DNA of 64,000 bases, taken from Meira nashicola (Eukaryota; Basidiomycota; Exobasidiomycetes; Exobasidiales; Brachybasidiaceae). The stretch is taken from contig BCJU01000004.1 of NCBI GenBank assembly GCA_001600355.1, positions 1,240,001 through 1,304,000 of the forward strand, read 5' to 3'. The stretch's first letter is position 1; each line of letters begins with the position of its first letter. The notes below the pieces were generated by a model. It had not been told where the DNA came from. It saw nothing but the letters and a program-made list of their open reading frames with translations, and made no database searches. The translations under genes were made by a program, and so were the position numbers. Of this stretch, positions 19,865 through 42,575 are shown in pieces.

Positions 19865-20308
19865 CTATTGAGGATTTTGCGATGAAGAAGACTGCGAAAA
19901 GGCTGAACTAGCTTCACTTCTGGTGTATGCGGGTGAATCAACACTGATGATACTCTCTGAAAAATGGTAAGGAAATTTATCAGTCAGCGATGTTTCAAAA
20001 AGTACAAATCAAGTCCAATTTTATTACTCACTTCCATCAACGATCTGTTTAGACGTGTTCCAATTCAAATAAGCCAAATCTTTTGGTTCTTTTGCACTTT
20101 TGAGCAAAGCGATCAATTCATCATCAGTGAGGACAGATACATCCAAGTCAGGGTTTGTTGCCAAGTTGTGTTCATGAAGTGCGTTCAATGGGTCGTATTC
20201 ATTGAATTTGAATTCATCACTCATCATAATGCAATCATCGTACATTGCTTTAGGTGAATAAGAACCGGATGAGACTGTTTGAGATGAGTAAGTATTGGAT
20301 GAAGCCAT
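19865..20308 (-). CDS. SQ-rich/DPLNALHE family, copy 1 (two-exon, one module)
   Basis: Unrecognised family, five copies in this window (numbered left to right by me). This copy appears to have two exons, 20032-20308 and 19865-19956, with a 75-nt intron (GTGAGT...TTTTCAG, branch-like CTGAC), giving 122 residues. The N-terminus is Ser/Tyr/Gln-rich (NTYSSQTVSSGSYS), followed by one module: DDCIMMSDEF, YDPLNALHEHNLATNPDLD, VSVLTDDELIALLKSAK. The second exon adds a Ser-rich tail ending SQSSSSQNPQ. The other four copies stop earlier, at a TAA in the position where this copy reads TAT, and lack the intron and most of exon 2. No signal peptide or membrane span. Function unknown; the intact exon structure suggests this may be the parental form (inference). 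Confidence 0.6.
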
Positions 20309-21212
20309 CTTGAAACAACGACAAAAAAGTGTTTGGTTGGTGAAAATGTCAAAGGTAGATGATTTGTTGAAATTGATTAATCGATACTATGACAATAATG
20401 AGATATTGTCAAGTTGCAGTTAAAACTTTGGTTGAGACGGATAAGTTGGATATGATAGAGAAGAGGGAAAAGGGGGAAATTGATTAAAGTGGCCACCTTA
20501 TATGCCCTTTTTGGAGATTGATAGAAAGTCCAAACAATCGATAAAGTGGATAGTGACTTAGTGCCCTCTTCCATTTTATCGCGCGCCACACACTGCAATA
20601 GTCTAGTCTACACTTTTTAATTTTGGCGGTAGACCTAGACTCGTCCATTAGCTTTCGGATGTTTAATATGCCTCCCGCGCTCTTTTTCTTTACGCGCCCT
20701 GTGTTTACGTAGTCTACAGGGCTGTGTCTTTATGCGGGAAAAAATATGCATGCACAGTAGTCTATACTCTCTCACGCTGCAACCTTTACGGCCGGAAATA
20801 AGGCCAAAGTGGACTGATATAAGATAAGAGAAACAGATGATCAGATCTGACTATACACATCAGAGACACCATGATGATACTTATGTAATAAAACTATCAT
20901 TTTTCCTTAAAGGCTAGATTTATGTTAAGACAAATTTTGTAATAAAAAGAGAGTATTAAATATAGAAATGAAGAGAAAATGAATTTGATGGCTTTAATCT
21001 ATAGAAAAATAAATAAGTAAAAGTAGATGGACTTCAAACTTAGTCAGAAACCAGAATTGTAAGGTTGGACAGGATAATGGACTTATCGATAAGATAAAAA
21101 CGAGTGTGATTCTTAATAATTTAAAGAAATGTGAATGAAAGGTGAAAACGAGAATAAAAGTTGATCAATTGAATTGAATTTTGAATTATGAGAACGATGC
21201 GTAAAAATACAA
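20309..21212. repeat. copy-1 upstream region and diverged shoulder of copy-2 unit
   Basis: From 20309 to about 20860 lies a diverged version of the upstream block shared by all family copies, including TGGCCACCTTATATG (TATA-like), CCCGCGCTCTTTTTCTT and GCTGCAACCTTTACGGCC. From about 20900 to 21212 is the diverged 3' shoulder of the copy-2 unit, alignable by eye with 30046-30330 in inverted orientation. No gene. Confidence 0.6.
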
Positions 21213-22334
21213 ATGTGAACAAGAACATTTGTTTTATGAATGTAGAGTATGCAGTGCCAACGAAAAGGAACGAAACGAGACGAGAATGTTGCAAACAAAA
21301 AAAAGCGGAAGAAGTGATAGCAACATTTGAAACCCATTGAGTATTATTGACTTCCACCAACGATGTGTTTAGACTTGTTCCAGATAGATTAAGCCTTTGT
21401 TTCTTTTGCACTCTTGAGTAAAGCGAAATATTCATCATCAGTGAGAACAGATACATCCAAATCGGGGTTTGATGCCAAGTTTTGTTCATGGAGTGCGTTC
21501 AATGGGTCGAAATCTTTACTTTTTAGCATATCTGCATCGCTCACCATAGTGCATTCATCTTCGTACTTCACTTGAGATGAGTGACCGGCTTGAGATGAGT
21601 AAGCAGCGAAATATTCATCATCACTAAGGATAGATACATCCAAATCAGGGTTTGTTGCCAAGTTGTGTTCATGAAGTGCGTTCAATGGGTCGTATGCTTT
21701 GTTTTTTAGCATATCTGCATCACTCATCATAATGCAGTCATCCTCGTTCATCATTTGGGATGAGTAAGTTTGAGAAGAGTAAGTTTGAGATGAGCCACTT
21801 TGAGAAGAGTAAGATTGAGATGAGCCACCTTGAGATGAACCACTTTGCGATGAGTAAGAAATGGATGAAGACATCTTGAAATCAAAAAAAAGTGTTTGAG
21901 TTGAAAAAAGTAAAGGTTGATGATTTGTTGAAGATGACAATATGGCAGTATTGTCAGATTTGCAGTAAGAACTTTTGAAAAAGATCAATGTAGTGAAGAG
22001 GGAAAAAGGAAATCGATCAAAGTGGCCGCTTTATATGCATTTTTCGGACATTGATAGAAAGTACAAACGATCAAAATGCGGATAGTGATTTAATGCGCCT
22101 TCCACTTTATTCTGCGTTACGCGCTGCTACAGTGTAGACCTAGGCTCGATGATTCAAGTTACGGATGTTTTACATACCTCCCGCGCTCTTTTTCTTCACG
22201 CGCCCAGTGACAGGCTTTTTCGGCCGCAAAAAAAACCTACGCACAGGCGTATCCTTATGCGGGCAAAATTATGCATGCACAGCATAGACGTACACTCTCC
22301 CACGCTTCAACCTTTACGGCCGAAGATAAGACCA
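21213..22334. repeat. inverted repeat, left arm core (1.12 kb)
   Basis: This stretch is the near-identical reverse complement of 28924-30045, with the same length. Evidence: three different reading frames in the two arms translate to identical proteins over this range, both in the coding and flanking parts. On both sides homology continues but drops sharply (indels and many substitutions). The core contains all of copy 2 and its promoter. The arms flank about 6.6 kb carrying four unrelated genes. Confidence 0.88.
21389..21874 (-). CDS. SQ-rich/DPLNALHE family, copy 2 (two modules)
   Basis: A 161-residue protein starting at the ATG at 21874 (MSSSISYSSQSG). The first 40 residues are a low-complexity run of GSSQ and TYSSQ units, nearly every one an SQ dipeptide. 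Two acidic modules follow at about residues 41-88 and 100-150, each with MSDADMLK, DPLNALHE, NLA(T/S)NPDLDVS and (S/T)DDEYFA. It ends LLKSAKETKA. The protein is identical to copy 3 at 29384-29869. No signal peptide, no transmembrane segment, no cysteine framework. The low-complexity part resembles prion-like SYSQ-type sequence, and SQ clusters can be PIKK kinase sites; neither function is shown here. Function unknown. Confidence 0.7.
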   Translation of the reverse strand: MSSSISYSSQSGSSQGGSSQSYSSQSGSSQTYSSQTYSSQMMNEDDCIMMSDADMLKNKAYDPLNALHEHNLATNPDLDVSILSDDEYFAAYSSQAGHSSQVKYEDECTMVSDADMLKSKDFDPLNALHEQNLASNPDLDVSVLTDDEYFALLKSAKETKA

Positions 22335-28569: not shown

Positions 28570-28933
28570 GCTATCATCGTACAGTAAGCGATGCTTTGCT
28601 CCGGGGACTTTTACATTTTCTGCAGAACGGATGAATCTCTTCCGACAGAATCACTTGTTTTTGGGTATCTCCGATCAGATCATCAGGCCAGGATTAGGGT
28701 CGCGTCTCACGCTTGAGAAACCGCGTACAGTGCAACACTTCCTATCCGCGTAACACTCAGCCTAGACTGCTTAAGCTCTATTTCTCCACACCAATGTGAA
28801 ATGTAACAACACTTTCTTAATGTTATCATCATACAGAAAGCGATGCTTTACTTCGGCGACTTTTGCATTTTCCTGCGGACGGATGAATCACTTCGGACAG
28901 AATCATCTCCGATCAGACGATTCTGGTCTTATC

Positions 28934-29228
28934 TTCGGCCGTAAAGGTTGAAGCGTGGGAGAGTGTACGTCTATGCTGTGCATGCATAATTTTGCCCGCA
29001 TAAGGATACGCCTGTGCGTAGGTTTTTTTTGCGGCCGAAAAAGCCTGTCACTGGGCGCGTGAAGAAAAAGAGCGCGGGAGGTATGTAAAACATCCGTAAC
29101 TTGAATCATCGAGCCTAGGTCTACACTGTAGCAGCGCGTAACGCAGAATAAAGTGGAAGGCGCATTAAATCACTATCCGCATTTTGATCGTTTGTACTTT
29201 CTATCAATGTCCGAAAAATGCATATAAA
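28934..29228 (+). promoter_or_regulatory. conserved upstream block of the SQ family, with TATA box
   Basis: All five copies share, in order, TTCGGCCGTAAAGGTT, GCGTGGGAGA, a TGCGGCC or similar element, AAGAGCGCGGGAGG, and a TATA-like element (TATAAA at 29223-29228 here and at 22030-22035 in inverse for copy 2; TATAAG at 31593-31598 and 41371-41376). The TATA lies about 155-160 bases before the start codon. This conservation outside coding sequence marks it as the promoter of the repeat unit. Confidence 0.6.
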
Positions 29229-29383
29229 GCGGCCACTTTGATCGATTTCCTTTTTCCCTCTTCACTACATTGATCTTTTTCAAAAGTTCTTACTGCAAAT
29301 CTGACAATACTGCCATATTGTCATCTTCAACAAATCATCAACCTTTACTTTTTTCAACTCAAACACTTTTTTTTGATTTCAAG

Positions 29384-29869
29384 ATGTCTTCATCCATTTC
29401 TTACTCATCGCAAAGTGGTTCATCTCAAGGTGGCTCATCTCAATCTTACTCTTCTCAAAGTGGCTCATCTCAAACTTACTCTTCTCAAACTTACTCATCC
29501 CAAATGATGAACGAGGATGACTGCATTATGATGAGTGATGCAGATATGCTAAAAAACAAAGCATACGACCCATTGAACGCACTTCATGAACACAACTTGG
29601 CAACAAACCCTGATTTGGATGTATCTATCCTTAGTGATGATGAATATTTCGCTGCTTACTCATCTCAAGCCGGTCACTCATCTCAAGTGAAGTACGAAGA
29701 TGAATGCACTATGGTGAGCGATGCAGATATGCTAAAAAGTAAAGATTTCGACCCATTGAACGCACTCCATGAACAAAACTTGGCATCAAACCCCGATTTG
29801 GATGTATCTGTTCTCACTGATGATGAATATTTCGCTTTACTCAAGAGTGCAAAAGAAACAAAGGCTTAA
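29384..29869 (+). CDS. SQ-rich/DPLNALHE family, copy 3 (two modules)
   Basis: 161 residues, start at the ATG at 29384, identical in protein sequence to copy 2. It has the same SSQ-repeat N-terminus and two DPLNALHE modules, ending in KSAKETKA at a TAA. Downstream, the sequence remains alignable to the read-through and second exon region of copy 1, but the splice donor (GGAAGTGAGT in copy 1) reads GGAAGTCAAT here, and the intron and most of exon 2 are missing. The identity with copy 2 despite diverged flanks suggests recent gene conversion. Function unknown. Confidence 0.7.
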   Translation: MSSSISYSSQSGSSQGGSSQSYSSQSGSSQTYSSQTYSSQMMNEDDCIMMSDADMLKNKAYDPLNALHEHNLATNPDLDVSILSDDEYFAAYSSQAGHSSQVKYEDECTMVSDADMLKSKDFDPLNALHEQNLASNPDLDVSVLTDDEYFALLKSAKETKA

Positions 29870-30045
29870 TCTATCTGGAACAAGTCTAAACACATCGTTG
29901 GTGGAAGTCAATAATACTCAATGGGTTTCAAATGTTGCTATCACTTCTTCCGCTTTTTTTTGTTTGCAACATTCTCGTCTCGTTTCGTTCCTTTTCGTTG
30001 GCACTGCATACTCTACATTCATAAAACAAATGTTCTTGTTCACAT

Positions 30046-31039
30046 CTGTATTTTTATGCATCGTTCTCATCATTAAAGATTAAATTCGATTGATTATCTT
30101 CATTTCTTATCGTATCATTCTCGTTTTCACCTTTCATTCGCTTTGTTTTAGATTTATTAAGAATTGTTTTCATTTTTACCTTATCATGCAGTCTATTGTT
30201 CATCCAACTCTACGATTTTGGTTTGATCTAAGTTTTGAGTCTGCTTTGATTCAATAATTTTTTAACAGATTAAAGCTATCAAACTTTTTGTTTCTTTATT
30301 TAATACTCTCTCCTTTTTTTTAAAAAAAAAAACTATTTTACCGTAAAACTAGTCTTTAAGAAAGAAATAAAAAGGTGCTATATACAAATGGTTCTGAGAG
30401 CCATCCTCATTTGTCGATTGGGATAGATCGATCCCATCCGATTCGATGTCTGAGCCTGAAGTACTTCCCTAAGCATGATGAAGACCGGATTGCCTAATAA
30501 CTAGGGTTCTATAGATTATTCGAGAATGTATATCTGCAAAAGATACAAATGCATGAGTGAATCTAGCGTGGATTGACCTTCGTAGTGAATCGGTATCCTA
30601 TGGTAAGAACAAGGATGGAGGTTGATACGTTCTTGATGGTCTGCATTAGTTTTCATCTTCGTCATCAGCATGAGGAATTAAAGCAACTAAAGATACTATC
30701 CTTCTCACAGAAGCTCTCAAACTACGATTGGAAGGAGTACGCTTAAGTGTATATATCTTATGATTACTCGTTATACTGATGAATCGATGAGCAATAGATC
30801 GTAATGACGTTTGACGTTGTCGACTTATCTGGTATCTCCAAATTTCGTACGAGAATTCAAACGATATGCCGTATCCGACACTAAAAGTATGAGAGTAAAT
30901 GCTGGAGAAGACTATATGCGTATTAACTACCGTAGGAAGATCATGCTGCCGGATAAGCACATAAATGATGATGGTACAAATTTTGCCTAAGCAGACGCAC
31001 GTACTGTATGCACTGTCTTCGGACTAGAATATCATTGTC
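30046..31039. repeat. unit tail and gene-relic-like repeat
   Basis: Up to about 30330 is the diverged 3' shoulder of the copy-3 unit. A separate segment at about 30858-31020 (ATGAGAGTAAATGCTGG...GCCTAAGCAGACGCACG) is repeated at 42418-42570 behind copy 5. A 104-codon minus-strand frame (30646-30960) crosses it; I do not recognise it and it may be a relic of a coding sequence. Otherwise no gene. Confidence 0.5.
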
Positions 31040-32360
31040 TCGGGAGCGAGCGTTCTGTGTATTTCTCTGTTAAAAAACGCGTGTGTTGGATTTACGCTCG
31101 AAAGACCGCGTATAGTACAACACTTTTTATCCGCATATGCAGTAAGCAATAGTCTAGGCTACTTGAAATTCCATTTCTCCACACCAATGTGAAATGTAAC
31201 GACACTTTCTTAATGTTATCATCATACAGAAAGCGATGCCTTACTTCGGCGACTTTCGTTTTTCAATGCCGGCGGACATGATCATATGGTTTTCTTATCT
31301 CGTATCAGTCCACTTTGGCCTTATTTTCGGCCGTAAAGGTTACAGCGTGGGAGATAATACTGTGCATCATAATTTTACCTGTGCGTACGTTTTTTTTGGC
31401 CAGAAGAGTCTGTCACTGGGCGCTTGAAAAAAAGAGCGCGGGAGGCATGTAAAACATCCGAAACTTGAATTATCGAGCCTAGTTCTACCTGTACTGTAGC
31501 AGCGTGTAGCGCAGGATAATGTTGGAAGGTGCAATAAATCACTATCCGCCTTTTTGATTGTTTGAACTTTCTATCAATGTCCGAAAAATGCATATAAGGC
31601 GGCCACTTCGATCAATTTCTTTTCTCTCTTCACTACATTCATCTTTTCCAAAAGTCTTTCCTGAAAATTTGACAATACTGCCATATTGTCATCATCAACA
31701 AATCATCAACCTTTACTTTTTCTCAACTCAAACACCTTTTTTTTGATTTCAAGATGTCTTCATCCAATGCTTCTTCATCTCAAAGTGGTTCAGCTTCAAG
31801 TGGCTCATCTCAATCTTACTCTTTGCAAGCTTTCTCATCTCAAATGAAGAACGAAAATGACAGCATTATAATGAGTGATGCAGACATGTTGAAAAATGAT
31901 CAACACGATCCATTGAACGCACTTCATGAACACAACTTGGCATCAAACCCTGATTTGGATGTATCTGTCCTCAGTGATGATGATTTTTTCGCTACTTACT
32001 CTTCTCAAATGAAGTGCAGAGATGAATGCATTATTATGAGTGATGCAGATATACAAAGAAACAAAGAATTCGACCCATTGAACGGACTCCATGAACACAA
32101 CTTGGCAACAAACCCCGATTTGGATGAATCTTTCCTCACTGATGATGAATTAATCGCTTTGATGAAAAGTGCAAAACAAACAAAAAGTTCGGCTTAACCG
32201 AATTGAAACAAGTCTAATCACATCGTCTATGGAAGTGAAAAAAACTCAATAGGCTTCAAAGGTCGCAATCACTGCTTCCACTCTTCTTTGGCTGCAACAT
32301 TCTCGTCTCGTTTCGTTTCGTTCGTATTGCATACTCTGTATTTTTGAAATAAATGTTCTT
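31040..32360. repeat. SQ-family repeat unit around copy 4
   Basis: The same order as in the other units: GAGCGAGCGTT, ACGCGTGTG, CGCTCGAAAGACCGCG, TAGTCTAGG, the GGCCGTAAAGGTT block, AAGAGCGCGGGAGG, TATA-like element, coding sequence, then GCAACATTCTCGTCTCGTTTCG in the 3' part. It abuts the 3' end of the intact WDR83 gene. Confidence 0.7.
31754..32197 (+). CDS. SQ-rich/DPLNALHE family, copy 4 (two modules)
   Basis: 147 residues from the ATG at 31754. The Ser/Gln-rich N-terminus is shorter (about 33 residues: SASSGSSQSYSLQAFSSQ) and the two modules are more diverged than in copies 2 and 3 (DQHDPLNALHEHNLAS and KEFDPLNGLHEHNLAT), the second ending FLTDDELIALMKSAKQTKSSA. DDELIAL at the end is the same variant as in copy 1, while the two-module layout is that of copies 2, 3 and 5. 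Intact frame despite divergence suggests selection to keep the protein. No localisation signal. Confidence 0.68.
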   Translation: MSSSNASSSQSGSASSGSSQSYSLQAFSSQMKNENDSIIMSDADMLKNDQHDPLNALHEHNLASNPDLDVSVLSDDDFFATYSSQMKCRDECIIMSDADIQRNKEFDPLNGLHEHNLATNPDLDESFLTDDELIALMKSAKQTKSSA

Positions 32361-35256: not shown

Positions 35257-36210
35257 ATGAAGGTTACCGCTGTCGCATTCACTTTTGCCGCTTTGGCTTC
35301 CGCCACTTTGGCAGTTCCAGTTCTTTCATCTGAACAAAATCAAGGTACGTATTGATTACTCGTTTCGCATCACGACCCCTTCGATGACATCAATGATCAT
35401 TCCTTTGCGGGTAATGTGATCATACAATCATGGGGAGGGGGTGTTGTATAAAAAAAGCAGGAGCGTGTACAGTATATGCGTCCGCGCGCGCGTTGATGTA
35501 CGCCAGTACGCGCATACATTCTGGCTTATATAATTCATTCCACGATCTTGTTTGAACATTTTGCTGACCAATTGATTTGATCGTTCCTTTCTCTATAATC
35601 AGTTGAAAGTCGTAGTGAAGATGCACCATTGAATGCAGTCCAAGAAAAATGGATCAATCCAGCCAAATTTGCATTCAAGAGGGAAGACGCAGAAGAGAAG
35701 GCTGTTAACCCAGGTAGCTATGCATGGAAAAGGGATGCCGATAAAGCGGAATTCATTAACCCTTCAGCTTTTGCATTCAAGAAACGTGAAGATGAATCAG
35801 AAGAAAGTGCTCCATTAGCAGACGCAAAAGGAAGATGGATCAATCCAAAAAAGTTTGCATGGAAACGTGAAGAAGATAGTGAACGGTTTATTAACCCTTC
35901 AGCTTTTGCATTCAAACGGGAAGAAGATAGTGAGAGATTCATTAATCCCGAGGCATTTGCATTCAAGCGGGAAGAAGATAGCGAAAAGTTTATTAATCCT
36001 GAGGCTTTCGCATTCAAACGGGAAGAAGATAGTGAGAGATTCATCAACCCAGAGGCCTTTGCATTCAAACGTGAAGAGGATAGCGAACGATTCATCAACC
36101 CATCAGCATTCGCATTTAAACGAGAAGAGGATACAGAAGAAGCTTTGGCCAAGTCAAAAGGAAGATGGATCAACCCAAAAATGTTCGCATGGAAGAAGCG
36201 CGAAGAGTAA
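35257..36210 (+). CDS. Kex2-processed repeat peptide precursor (ten units)
   Basis: Two exons, 35257-35344 and 35603-36210, joined over a 258-nt GTACGT...ATCAG intron, give 231 residues. The signal peptide (VTAVAFTFAALASATLA) is on exon 1. After a short pro-segment come ten units, each ending in KR or KKR: WINPAKFAF, AVNPGSYAW, FINPSAFAF (three copies), WINPKKFAW, FINPEAFAF (three copies) and WINPKMFAW. Spacers are acidic (EEDSER, EEDSEK), and most units are preceded by a single Arg or Lys, so cleavage at both ends would free a nonapeptide with aromatic ends. This is the layout of Kex2-processed repeat proteins, including alpha-factor-like precursors. No CaaX, no Cys. Role unknown: secreted signal, repellent or modified peptide are all possible. 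Confidence 0.88.
35869..36123 (+). repeat. five tandem 51-bp repeats inside the peptide precursor
   Basis: Exactly five 51-nt (17-codon) units encoding EEDSE(R/K)FINP(S/E)AFAFKR. Third-base differences between units (for example cgg/cgt/cga for the last Arg) show they are not the product of a very recent slippage and that the peptide is conserved. Confidence 0.9.
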
Positions 36211-36986
36211 ATTATACAATCCAAAAAAATCCTTCCTTCATTTCTCTTTGTATAACATGTCTTTTCTCTTTCTCTGTCCTCACTCATTATGAATTGCTGT
36301 AGCCCTTTCATTCTTATTGCTCTCTTACTCTCACTCTCTTTCTCTCTCGGTCACCAAGCATATACAACATACATGTACAGGGGTATCTATCTCGTTCTAT
36401 TCATTAGTTAAAATGGGTTTTTAATTTGCCGGTCTGATCGTGAAGCAACAAAAAGAATACGAGAAATCATCTGCGCTCAGGCCCGATTTGTGTTGCTATA
36501 TCATTTCCCCCGAAGTGCTTACCATCGAGTGTTGACCTTACCCATGATCCGAAAATGTAGCATTCACGCGTACGTGTGAATGATTATCTCTACTAGCTCT
36601 TCTAGGAGGCGTTACGAACTACTTACCTAGTTTGCAAATATAGCATTCATTGTACATAATTCAACAGAATACTTGATGGATTGATTGCATTTCAATTTAT
36701 CCAGAAATGGAATTCAATAAAAACGCAGGAGAAAAGCCACAATCGGCCCCACAAGGTAGCAATATGCAGTAAGGGCAAGTTGACCTGATATCAGACTTTA
36801 ATGCATAAAGCTTAAATTGTATGTAGAAGCATTCTCTAAAAGAAACTTTCACTAACGAAATCCATACACATGTGTTATTGTTCTTTAGTAGAACTTAGTT
36901 TATCCAAATTGATTTGAACAAAATCAAAGGATAAGAGCAGTGATTTAAACGTTGGGAAAGAGGAAAGAGGAAACCAATTTAACGGC
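36211..36986. other. intergenic with 22-bp palindrome
   Basis: 776 bases. CT-rich 3' UTR of the peptide precursor gene at about 36300-36350. An almost perfect 22-bp inverted repeat lies at 36561-36582, centred on CGTACG with arms CATTCAC and GTGAATG. Nothing else recognised. Confidence 0.5.
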
Positions 36987-40829: not shown

Positions 40830-42575
40830 GCAGGAGCGAGCGTTTAACATCGAGTGACTTTTGTATTTCTCTGCTAAAAACGCGTGTGTAGGATACACGC
40901 TCGAAAGACCGCGTACAGTACAACACTTTTTATCCGCATGTGCAGCAGTAGTCTAGGCTGCTCCAAATTCCACACATCCGTAATGCTATCATCATCATAC
41001 AGAAAGCGATGCTTTACTTCGGCGACTTTCGTATTTCAATGCCGGCGGACATGATCATATGGTTTTCTTATCTCGTATCAGTCCACTTTGGCCTTACTTT
41101 CGGCCGTAAAGGTTGCAGCGTGGGAGAGTATACTGTGCATGCATAATTTTACCTGTGCGTAGATTTTTTTTGCGGCCGAAAAAGTCTGTCACTGGGCGCG
41201 TGAAGAAAAAGAGCGCGGGAGGCATGTAAAACATCCGAAACTTGAATTATCGAGCCTAGGTCTACCTGCACTGTAGCAGCGTGGAGCGAAGGATAATGTT
41301 GGAAGGTGCAATGAATCACTATCCGCATTTTTTGATTGTTTGGACTTTCTGTCAATGTCCGAAAAATGCATATAAGGCGGCCAGTTTGATCGATTTCCTT
41401 TTTCCCTCTTCACTACATTGATCTTTTTCAAAAGTTCTTACTGCAAATTTGACAATACTGCCATATTGTCATCATCAACAAATCATCAACCTTTACTTTT
41501 TCAACTCAAACACTTTTTTTTTGTTTTCAAAATGTCTTCATCCAATGCTTACTCATCTCAAAGTGGTTCATCCCAAAGTGGCTCATCTCAAACTTACTCT
41601 TCTCACACTTACTCATCCCACATGATAGACGAGGATAACTGCATTTTGATGAGTGATGCAGATATGCTAAAAACCAAAGCATACGACCCATTAAACGCAC
41701 TTCATGAACAAAACTTGGCATCAAACCCTGATTTAGACGTATCTATTCTCAGTGATGATGAATATTTCGCTGCTTACTCATCTCAAGCTGGTCACTCAAC
41801 TCAAACAAAGTACGAAGAAGAATGCATTATGATGAGTGATGCAGATATACTCAAATCTAAAGAATACGACCCATTGAATGCACTCCATGAACAAAACTTG
41901 GCAACAAACCCTGATTTGGATGTATCTGTCCTCACTGATGACGAATATTTCGCTTTACTCAAAAGTGCAAAAGAAACAAAGGCTTAACTGAACTGGTACA
42001 AGTCTAAACACATCTCAATAGGCTTTAAAGGTTGCTATCACTGCTTCCACTTCTTTTTTGGTTGCAGCATTCTCGTCTTTTTTCGTTCCGTTCCGTTCGT
42101 ACTGCATACTCTCTATTTATGAAACAAATGTTCTTATTCACATCTGTATTTTTACTCATCGTTCTCATAATTCAAAATTCAAAATTCAATTCAATTGATT
42201 ATCTTCATTTATCATTCTCGTTTTCACCTTTCATTCGCTTTTCTTTAGATTATTAAGAATCATATTCGTTTTTAATTTATCATCCATTCCATTATCCTAT
42301 CCATCCTTACGATTCTGCTTTCTAATCATGTTTGAAGTGCAACTACTTCTACTTAATTATTTTTCTATAGATAAAAGCTACTGTTTTCTATTTCTACATT
42401 TAATCCTCTCTGTTTTTCAAACGATACACCGTATCCGATGCTAAAATTATGAGAGTGAATGCTGGTGAACACTATATGCGCATCAACTATCGTAGGTGCT
42501 GCCGGATAATAAGATGATGATGGTACAAATTTTGCCTAAGCAGACGCACGCCCTGCACTGTCTCTGGACTAGTGG
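40830..42575. repeat. SQ-family repeat unit around copy 5
   Basis: The most complete unit: 5' part from GAGCGAGCG at about 40833, the shared promoter block (GGCCGTAAAGGTT at about 41103, AAGAGCGCGGGAGG at about 41210), copy 5, the 3' part with GCAGCATTCTCGTC, and the tail segment 42418-42570 also found at 30858-31020. It lies between DAP1 and TBCE. Confidence 0.75.
41532..41987 (+). CDS. SQ-rich/DPLNALHE family, copy 5 (two modules)
   Basis: 151 residues from the ATG at 41532. N-terminal SSQ units (SGSSQSGSSQTYSS) are fewer than in copies 2 and 3. Two modules follow, AYDPLNALHEQNLASNPDLD and EYDPLNALHEQNLATNPDLD, with ILSDDEYFA and VLTDDEYFA, ending LLKSAKETKA. Differences from copies 2/3 are spread over the chain but keep the frame and the module core, which argues for a working protein. 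Transcribed from a unit with its own TATA-like element (41371-41376). Function unknown. Confidence 0.7.
   Translation: MSSSNAYSSQSGSSQSGSSQTYSSHTYSSHMIDEDNCILMSDADMLKTKAYDPLNALHEQNLASNPDLDVSILSDDEYFAAYSSQAGHSTQTKYEEECIMMSDADILKSKEYDPLNALHEQNLATNPDLDVSVLTDDEYFALLKSAKETKA

Follow-up and report, generated by a model that had tools for sequence, protein, structure and literature searches.

Kex2 prefers dibasic sites, and among the proteins known to be processed by it is the repeat protein Rep1 of Ustilago maydis. Proteins of this kind were named KEPs (Kex2-processed repeat proteins) in 2019 by Le Marquer (PMC6339444), and were surveyed again in 2020 by Umemura (PMC7329392). According to the accessible text of Vogt et al. 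(PMC9769878), most KEP peptides are without a known function, linear peptides are reported for agaricomycete KEPs, and products of single-Arg cuts for Coprinopsis KEPs made in Pichia. Other P2 residues for Kex2 are mentioned in the accessible part of PMC2515848.

The locus studied here lies in a 64,000-nucleotide stretch of Meira nashicola DNA (the window; C4:1240001-1304000 of a 17.9 Mb genome in 20 contigs), which has a G+C content of 39%. A two-exon gene is predicted on the + strand at 35257-36210, with the ATG at 35257 and the stop ending at 36210, giving a product of 231 aa. The coordinates, the frame and the 258-nt predicted intron are as described in a previous sequence-only reading of this DNA, and were found again when the sequence was re-read. 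The features are the following, in window positions:

35257..35344, + strand: exon 1, coding for the signal-peptide-like start MKVTAVAFTFAALASATLA and the beginning of the pro-region
35345..35602, + strand: predicted intron, 258 nt, with GTACGT at the 5' end and CTGAC about 40 nt upstream of the TAATCAG end
35603..36210, + strand: exon 2, remaining pro-region, ten units and stop
35650..35682, + strand: unit 1, WINPAKFAF followed by KR, K before the core
35701..35733, + strand: unit 2, AVNPGSYAW followed by KR, K before the core
35752..35787, + strand: unit 3, FINPSAFAF followed by KKR, the residue directly before the core not basic (DADKAE|FINPSAFAF)
35836..35868, + strand: unit 4, WINPKKFAW followed by KR, 16-residue spacer ending in KGR
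35887..35919, + strand: unit 5, FINPSAFAF followed by KR, spacer EEDSER
35938..35970, + strand: unit 6, FINPEAFAF followed by KR, spacer EEDSER
35989..36021, + strand: unit 7, FINPEAFAF followed by KR, spacer EEDSEK
36040..36072, + strand: unit 8, FINPEAFAF followed by KR, spacer EEDSER
36091..36123, + strand: unit 9, FINPSAFAF followed by KR, spacer EEDSER
36166..36201, + strand: unit 10, WINPKMFAW followed by KKR, 14-residue spacer with KGR before the core
35854..36133, + strand: 51-nt tandem array, 5.5 copies with 80% matches

The N-terminus of the precursor contains a hydrophobic stretch (Kyte-Doolittle) and, judged by eye, an Ala at the likely cut. All ten units follow the consensus [W/F/A][I/V]NPxx[F/Y]A[F/W], and every core is directly followed by a basic tail (10/10), which is KR in eight units and KKR in two. 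The form (W/F)INPxxFA(F/W), which had been claimed for all ten units, is found in 9/10 and fails in unit 2, which reads AVNPGSYAW. Recounting gave the same ten K(K)R sites as previously reported and the same six distinct nonapeptides, namely WINPAKFAF, AVNPGSYAW, FINPSAFAF (three times), WINPKKFAW, FINPEAFAF (three times), and WINPKMFAW. The single Arg or Lys said to precede most cores is indeed the last residue of the pre-core stretch in 9/10, the exception being unit 3. These stretches differ in their letters and are acid-rich throughout, with lengths of 26 (including the pro-region), 6, 6, 16, 6, 6, 6, 6, 6, and 14 residues for units 1 to 10, and the pieces between the predicted KR cuts have 17-18 residues, with two of 26-27. 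The splice model finds independent support in the alignment of this precursor to a second one, a single open frame, which runs ungapped across the junction (Q|V).

These features, namely a signal-peptide-like start, internal repeats, KR between the repeats, and a kexin in the genome, fit those of the KEPs as far as can be judged from sequence. At least three internal repeats are asked of a KEP, and here there are ten units and a tandem array; Kex2 sites are found between the repeats, with 10/10 units ending in KR or KKR; and the genome carries a kexin gene. The assignment to the Kex2-type repeat precursors made in the sequence-only reading is backed by the sequence, by this kexin gene, and by the related precursor in whose homologues many KR sites are kept. 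The claim that the peptide is undescribed needs to be divided. Six strings of the cores do not occur in the main texts of the papers searched, and the peptide is not mentioned in the accessible portions of the literature on Exobasidium, on a fern genome, and on Ustilaginomycotina, but the class of the precursor was already known (PMC6339444 and PMC7329392, in their accessible text).

The five regular 51-nt units show that it is the peptide that has been kept. In the coding frame pS is 0.904 and pN is 0.041, which makes it the best of the six frames, while in the other five pS lies between 0.06 and 0.50 and pN between 0.10 and 0.25, the next best being an antisense frame (pS 0.499, pN 0.097). 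At the level of single sites, 14/18 of those that vary among the regular units are third codon positions. The synonymous differences between units that had been pointed out from the sequence are, thus, borne out for the five regular units. An antisense ORF of 210 aa at 35718-36350 was considered as a rival coding sequence and set aside (pS 0.50 and pN 0.10 versus 0.90 and 0.04 in sense). In the mature part, none of 20000 shuffles reached ten KR, the best one having nine. A degenerate DNA pattern (NPxx[FY]A[FW]K[RK] and a few neighbours) has 12 matches in the 17.9 Mb genome, ten of them in the units and the other two isolated on C3, and the reversed control pattern has 0 matches in the same 17.9 Mb. 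The two matches on C3 are single motifs in short repeat-free frames and were taken as chance rather than as further precursors. Chance or a frame artefact is ruled out by the pattern search with its reversed control, the shuffles, and the six-frame pS and pN. The Pfam scan of the precursor gave Transp_Tc5_C, DUF7723, Herpes_UL1, DUF4148, and NosL, all under the curated cut-offs.

Conservation is unevenly distributed within the core. Over the ten units, N, P, and the A of position 8 are present in 10/10, and I and F in 9/10, while positions 5 and 6 are free in size and charge (S, E, K, A, G and A, K, S, M, respectively). The codon of the Ala in position 8 is GCA in 10/10 units. An invariant frame with a variable middle is what would be expected of a recognised ligand. 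Conservation of the spacer EEDSE(R/K) matches that of the core when the five regular units are compared (pN of 0.032 versus 0.056), and a 15-residue product that keeps the spacer would fit this conservation.

Beyond the sequence-only reading, a second precursor related to the ten-unit one was found here. It was reached through a weak match (E 0.05) in a protein search of the own genome with the ten-unit precursor, and is located at C2:1799013-1801088 (minus strand), where one intron-free open frame codes for 692 aa. Its N-terminus is signal-like, and predicted cuts after KR or RR, 27 in all, would give many different aromatic peptides (e.g., SPIFSWKGKGYL and EPIFHINRYYSG). The pro-region and the first unit are common to both precursors, with a score of 53 that was reached by 0/5000 shuffles and a BLASTP E of 5e-6; in the alignment of the two pro-regions and first cores, PVLSSEQNQVESRSEDAPLNAVQEKWINPAKFAF stands against PVSVNGFNSIEKRSEGANL, three gap positions and EERYVDNRKFAY. 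The two have in common this aligned part, aromatic cores, and many KR sites, whereas the second precursor does not repeat one core but carries a diverse set of them and, being one open frame, lacks the intron predicted for the ten-unit precursor. With a common pro-region and first unit, the two precursors likely belong to one Exobasidiales peptide system.

Searching the own genome with the second precursor, either that of Meira nashicola or that of Meira miltonrushii, gives only the C2 locus. The Meira miltonrushii homologue is FA14DRAFT_155093 (P0004; E 5e-105, 29% identity over 98%), and a further homologue, P0005, does not cover the part before the first core. An alignment of the three sequences has many KR pairs among its invariant columns. 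Judged by this one protein family, the genome would be placed near Meira in the order Exobasidiales, a tie that the sequence-only reading did not make. The cut before the first core reads EER|Y in Meira nashicola versus EKR|Y in Meira miltonrushii, and this replacement of EER by EKR supports cutting at a single basic residue. The Meira miltonrushii copy also contains VWNPNRYAFAPP, which has the same NPxxYAF frame as the ten-unit precursor; this frame is found neither in the second precursor of Meira nashicola nor in P0005. When the ten-unit pro-region is compared with the Meira miltonrushii copy, the score is reached by 19/5000 shuffles for the first part and by 544/5000 for the whole length. 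An annotated protein of the fern Adiantum nelumboides (P0003) is 100% identical to the second precursor over 63% of it; the entry in the fern record is probably a fungal contaminant of that assembly.

No orthologue of the ten-unit precursor was found in 5.8 billion proteins, of which the 7995 candidates sharing most words were scored, and 194 candidates in a second search. This lack is weak evidence, given that exon 2 has no ATG upstream of unit 10 and gene callers that require a start may, for this reason, have missed it in annotation. The search with 7995 candidates returned the species' own exon 1 together with the doubtful P0001, and that with 194 candidates gave no match. P0001 comes from a contig of 1820 nt and has ...INPEAFAF... 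repeats with a period of 17-18 residues, being 47% identical over 76 residues; its five ...(N/K)PxA(F/Y)AF blocks are without KR, and it has no signal-like start. Compared with phage proteins, it gave a best PHROG E of 0.026 and no phage match. P0001 may represent convergence, or a relative that weakens the argument drawn from KR; were it a true relative, it would follow that KR is not universal. Homologues in which KR is not kept had been named as grounds against the precursor, and P0001, as a doubtful relative, bears on this.

The enzymes that such a precursor calls for can be looked for in the genome. The kexin P domain has one match, within a frame of 940 aa that also carries an S8 catalytic domain and whose best match among solved structures is Kexin 2id4 (E 1e-152). 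S10 carboxypeptidases, the family of Kex1, have 22 matched stretches, with neighbouring matches clustered at C1:4532491-4551167 and C5:370938-393033, and the dipeptidyl peptidase family of Ste13 has one gene. No match in the genome was obtained for UstYa (PF11807, DUF3328) or for STE2, both searches being without a positive control, whereas STE3 matches are present, a eukaryotic family found by the same kind of search. At C1:3456532-3463672 two STE3-type receptor regions are oppositely oriented with about 6 kb between them, forming a candidate mating locus, and one of them has two TGA inside the matched stretch, possibly an intron.

In the window, 10/28 ORFs were scanned with Pfam and gave thiolase, sedlin, WD40, Derlin, cytochrome b5-like, and CAP-Gly/LRR, with four having no family above the cut-off; nothing suggestive of a biosynthetic cluster was seen among these ten. 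A duplicated gene family flanks the peptide gene on both sides (20028-20218, 21151-22334, 28924-30107, 31170-32322, and 40943-42395). Two of its copies form an inverted pair of 1184 nt that is 99% identical, and the two copies that were scanned gave no Pfam family above the cut-off. The encoded proteins are rich in Ser and Gln and contain two repeats, for example ...DPLNALHEQNLASNPDLDVSVLTDDEYFA.

From these observations, it is considered somewhat probable that the repeat precursor is cut by kexin into linear aromatic-ended nonapeptides, likely unmodified, which act outside the cell as signals. The N-terminus would direct the precursor to secretion via the ER, and Kex2, for which the single kexin detected in the genome is the candidate, would cut after KR or KKR. 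A Kex1-like carboxypeptidase from the S10 family, members of which are present, would trim the KR tail, and cutting at the single basic residue, the least certain of the steps, would free the acidic spacer. Rings would not be formed, given that no UstYa gene was detected in a search without a positive control. Finally, the fungus's own cells or their neighbours would have a receptor or transporter that recognises the fixed I-N-P and F-A-F/W frame. Cleavage at both ends, as had been proposed, gains indirect support from the exchange between EER and EKR and from the single-Arg cuts in the accessible text of PMC9769878. Weighing against it are unit 3, whose core is not directly preceded by a basic residue, the preference of Kex2 for dibasic sites, and a spacer kept like the core among the five regular units.

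A precursor of this type could instead be surface-active, with 15-residue peptides (EEDSERFINPSAFAF) whose head, EEDSER, is acidic and whose tail, FINPSAFAF, is aromatic, and that would assemble on the hyphal surface like the Rep1 repellents of Ustilago maydis. This is rather unlikely, even though Rep1 is from a fungus of the subphylum of Meira and, in the accessible text of PMC6339444 and PMC4617103, is without the STE13 signature, a net charge of -3 or -4 next to a hydrophobic tail would suit such a role, and the spacer is kept like the core in five units. The repeats of Rep1 have 34-55 residues according to PMC4617103 (accessible text), against 17-18 here with two of 26-27; there is a proline inside the tail, and the pre-core stretches of units 1, 4, and 10 are long and dissimilar. 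A strict N, P, and A around a free middle would also exceed the needs of an amphipathic coat, and it is because the fixed letters are this specific while the middle is free that signalling is favoured over a wall coat. Peptides directed at a host or a competitor, as effectors or antimicrobials, could come from the same type of precursor. An effector role of KEPs in plant-associated fungi is under discussion (PMC6339444), and the order also includes plant pathogens, namely species of Exobasidium (PMC13010171), both as given in the accessible text, but the sequence holds no pointer to a host target and Vogt et al. found, in the part of PMC9769878 available, no specific function for the KEP peptides examined, which leaves this role doubtful.

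A ustiloxin-type RiPP, modified and cyclic, would have the same precursor layout, and the aromatic residues could be linked; nonetheless, this is very improbable, since neither the genome, in a search without a positive control, nor the ten scanned of the 28 window ORFs gave a UstYa match, and 9/10 cores have no Tyr. It is similarly hard to believe that the array is a repeat expansion without a peptide function, in which a coding tandem repeat was kept by chance or by homogenisation. A 51-nt tandem array, the lack of an orthologue in the protein searches with 7995 and 194 candidates, and the similar blocks without KR in P0001 would agree with such an origin, but synonymous change is near saturation while the peptide is kept, KR stands behind each unit, and a related precursor has a homologue in Meira miltonrushii.

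Returning to secreted linear nonapeptides as signals, a wider proposal, which is put forward tentatively and is possible at best, is that of a neuropeptide-like system of the Exobasidiales, in which kexin would cut two related precursors at both dibasic and single basic residues and a fungal receptor would read the products. If this is so, one precursor would yield a single ligand, (F/W)INPxxFA(F/W), in many copies, and the other many different aromatic peptides. One defined core in six variants, together with a related second precursor that has a homologue in Meira miltonrushii, provides a small set of candidate synthetic peptides for assays of binding, transport, or response, and a natural case where single basic and dibasic sites seem interchangeable.

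Among the known systems, the ten-unit precursor differs from the KEPs in the single basic residue that precedes the core in 9/10 units and in core strings of which six were not found in the paper texts searched. Like the alpha-type pheromone precursors of Ascomycota, it has a signal, a spacer, and a repeated short peptide with KR. The STE13 signature of these pheromones is seen here only as X-Ala after 1/10 cuts (KR|DA), while the second precursor has X-Pro after 9/27 cuts and X-Ala after 1/27; as for the alpha-type receptor, the genome has STE3 matches and no STE2 match in a search without a control. Qsp1 of Cryptococcus neoformans is, in the accessible text of PMC7537855, a secreted basidiomycete peptide with a signalling role, which is likened to the present peptides by description and not by sequence and which, unlike them, is matured outside the cell by the protease Pqp1. 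Rep1 and Hum3 of Ustilago maydis, as far as their accessible descriptions go, share with the ten-unit precursor the Kex2-processed repeats and, in the case of Rep1, the absence of the STE13 signature. The likeness is drawn from layout. The repeats of Rep1 and Hum3 have 31-55 residues versus 17-18 (two of 26-27) here, and, where Rep1 has amphipathic repeats of 34-55 residues, the pieces of the ten-unit precursor have 17-18 residues and at most 27.
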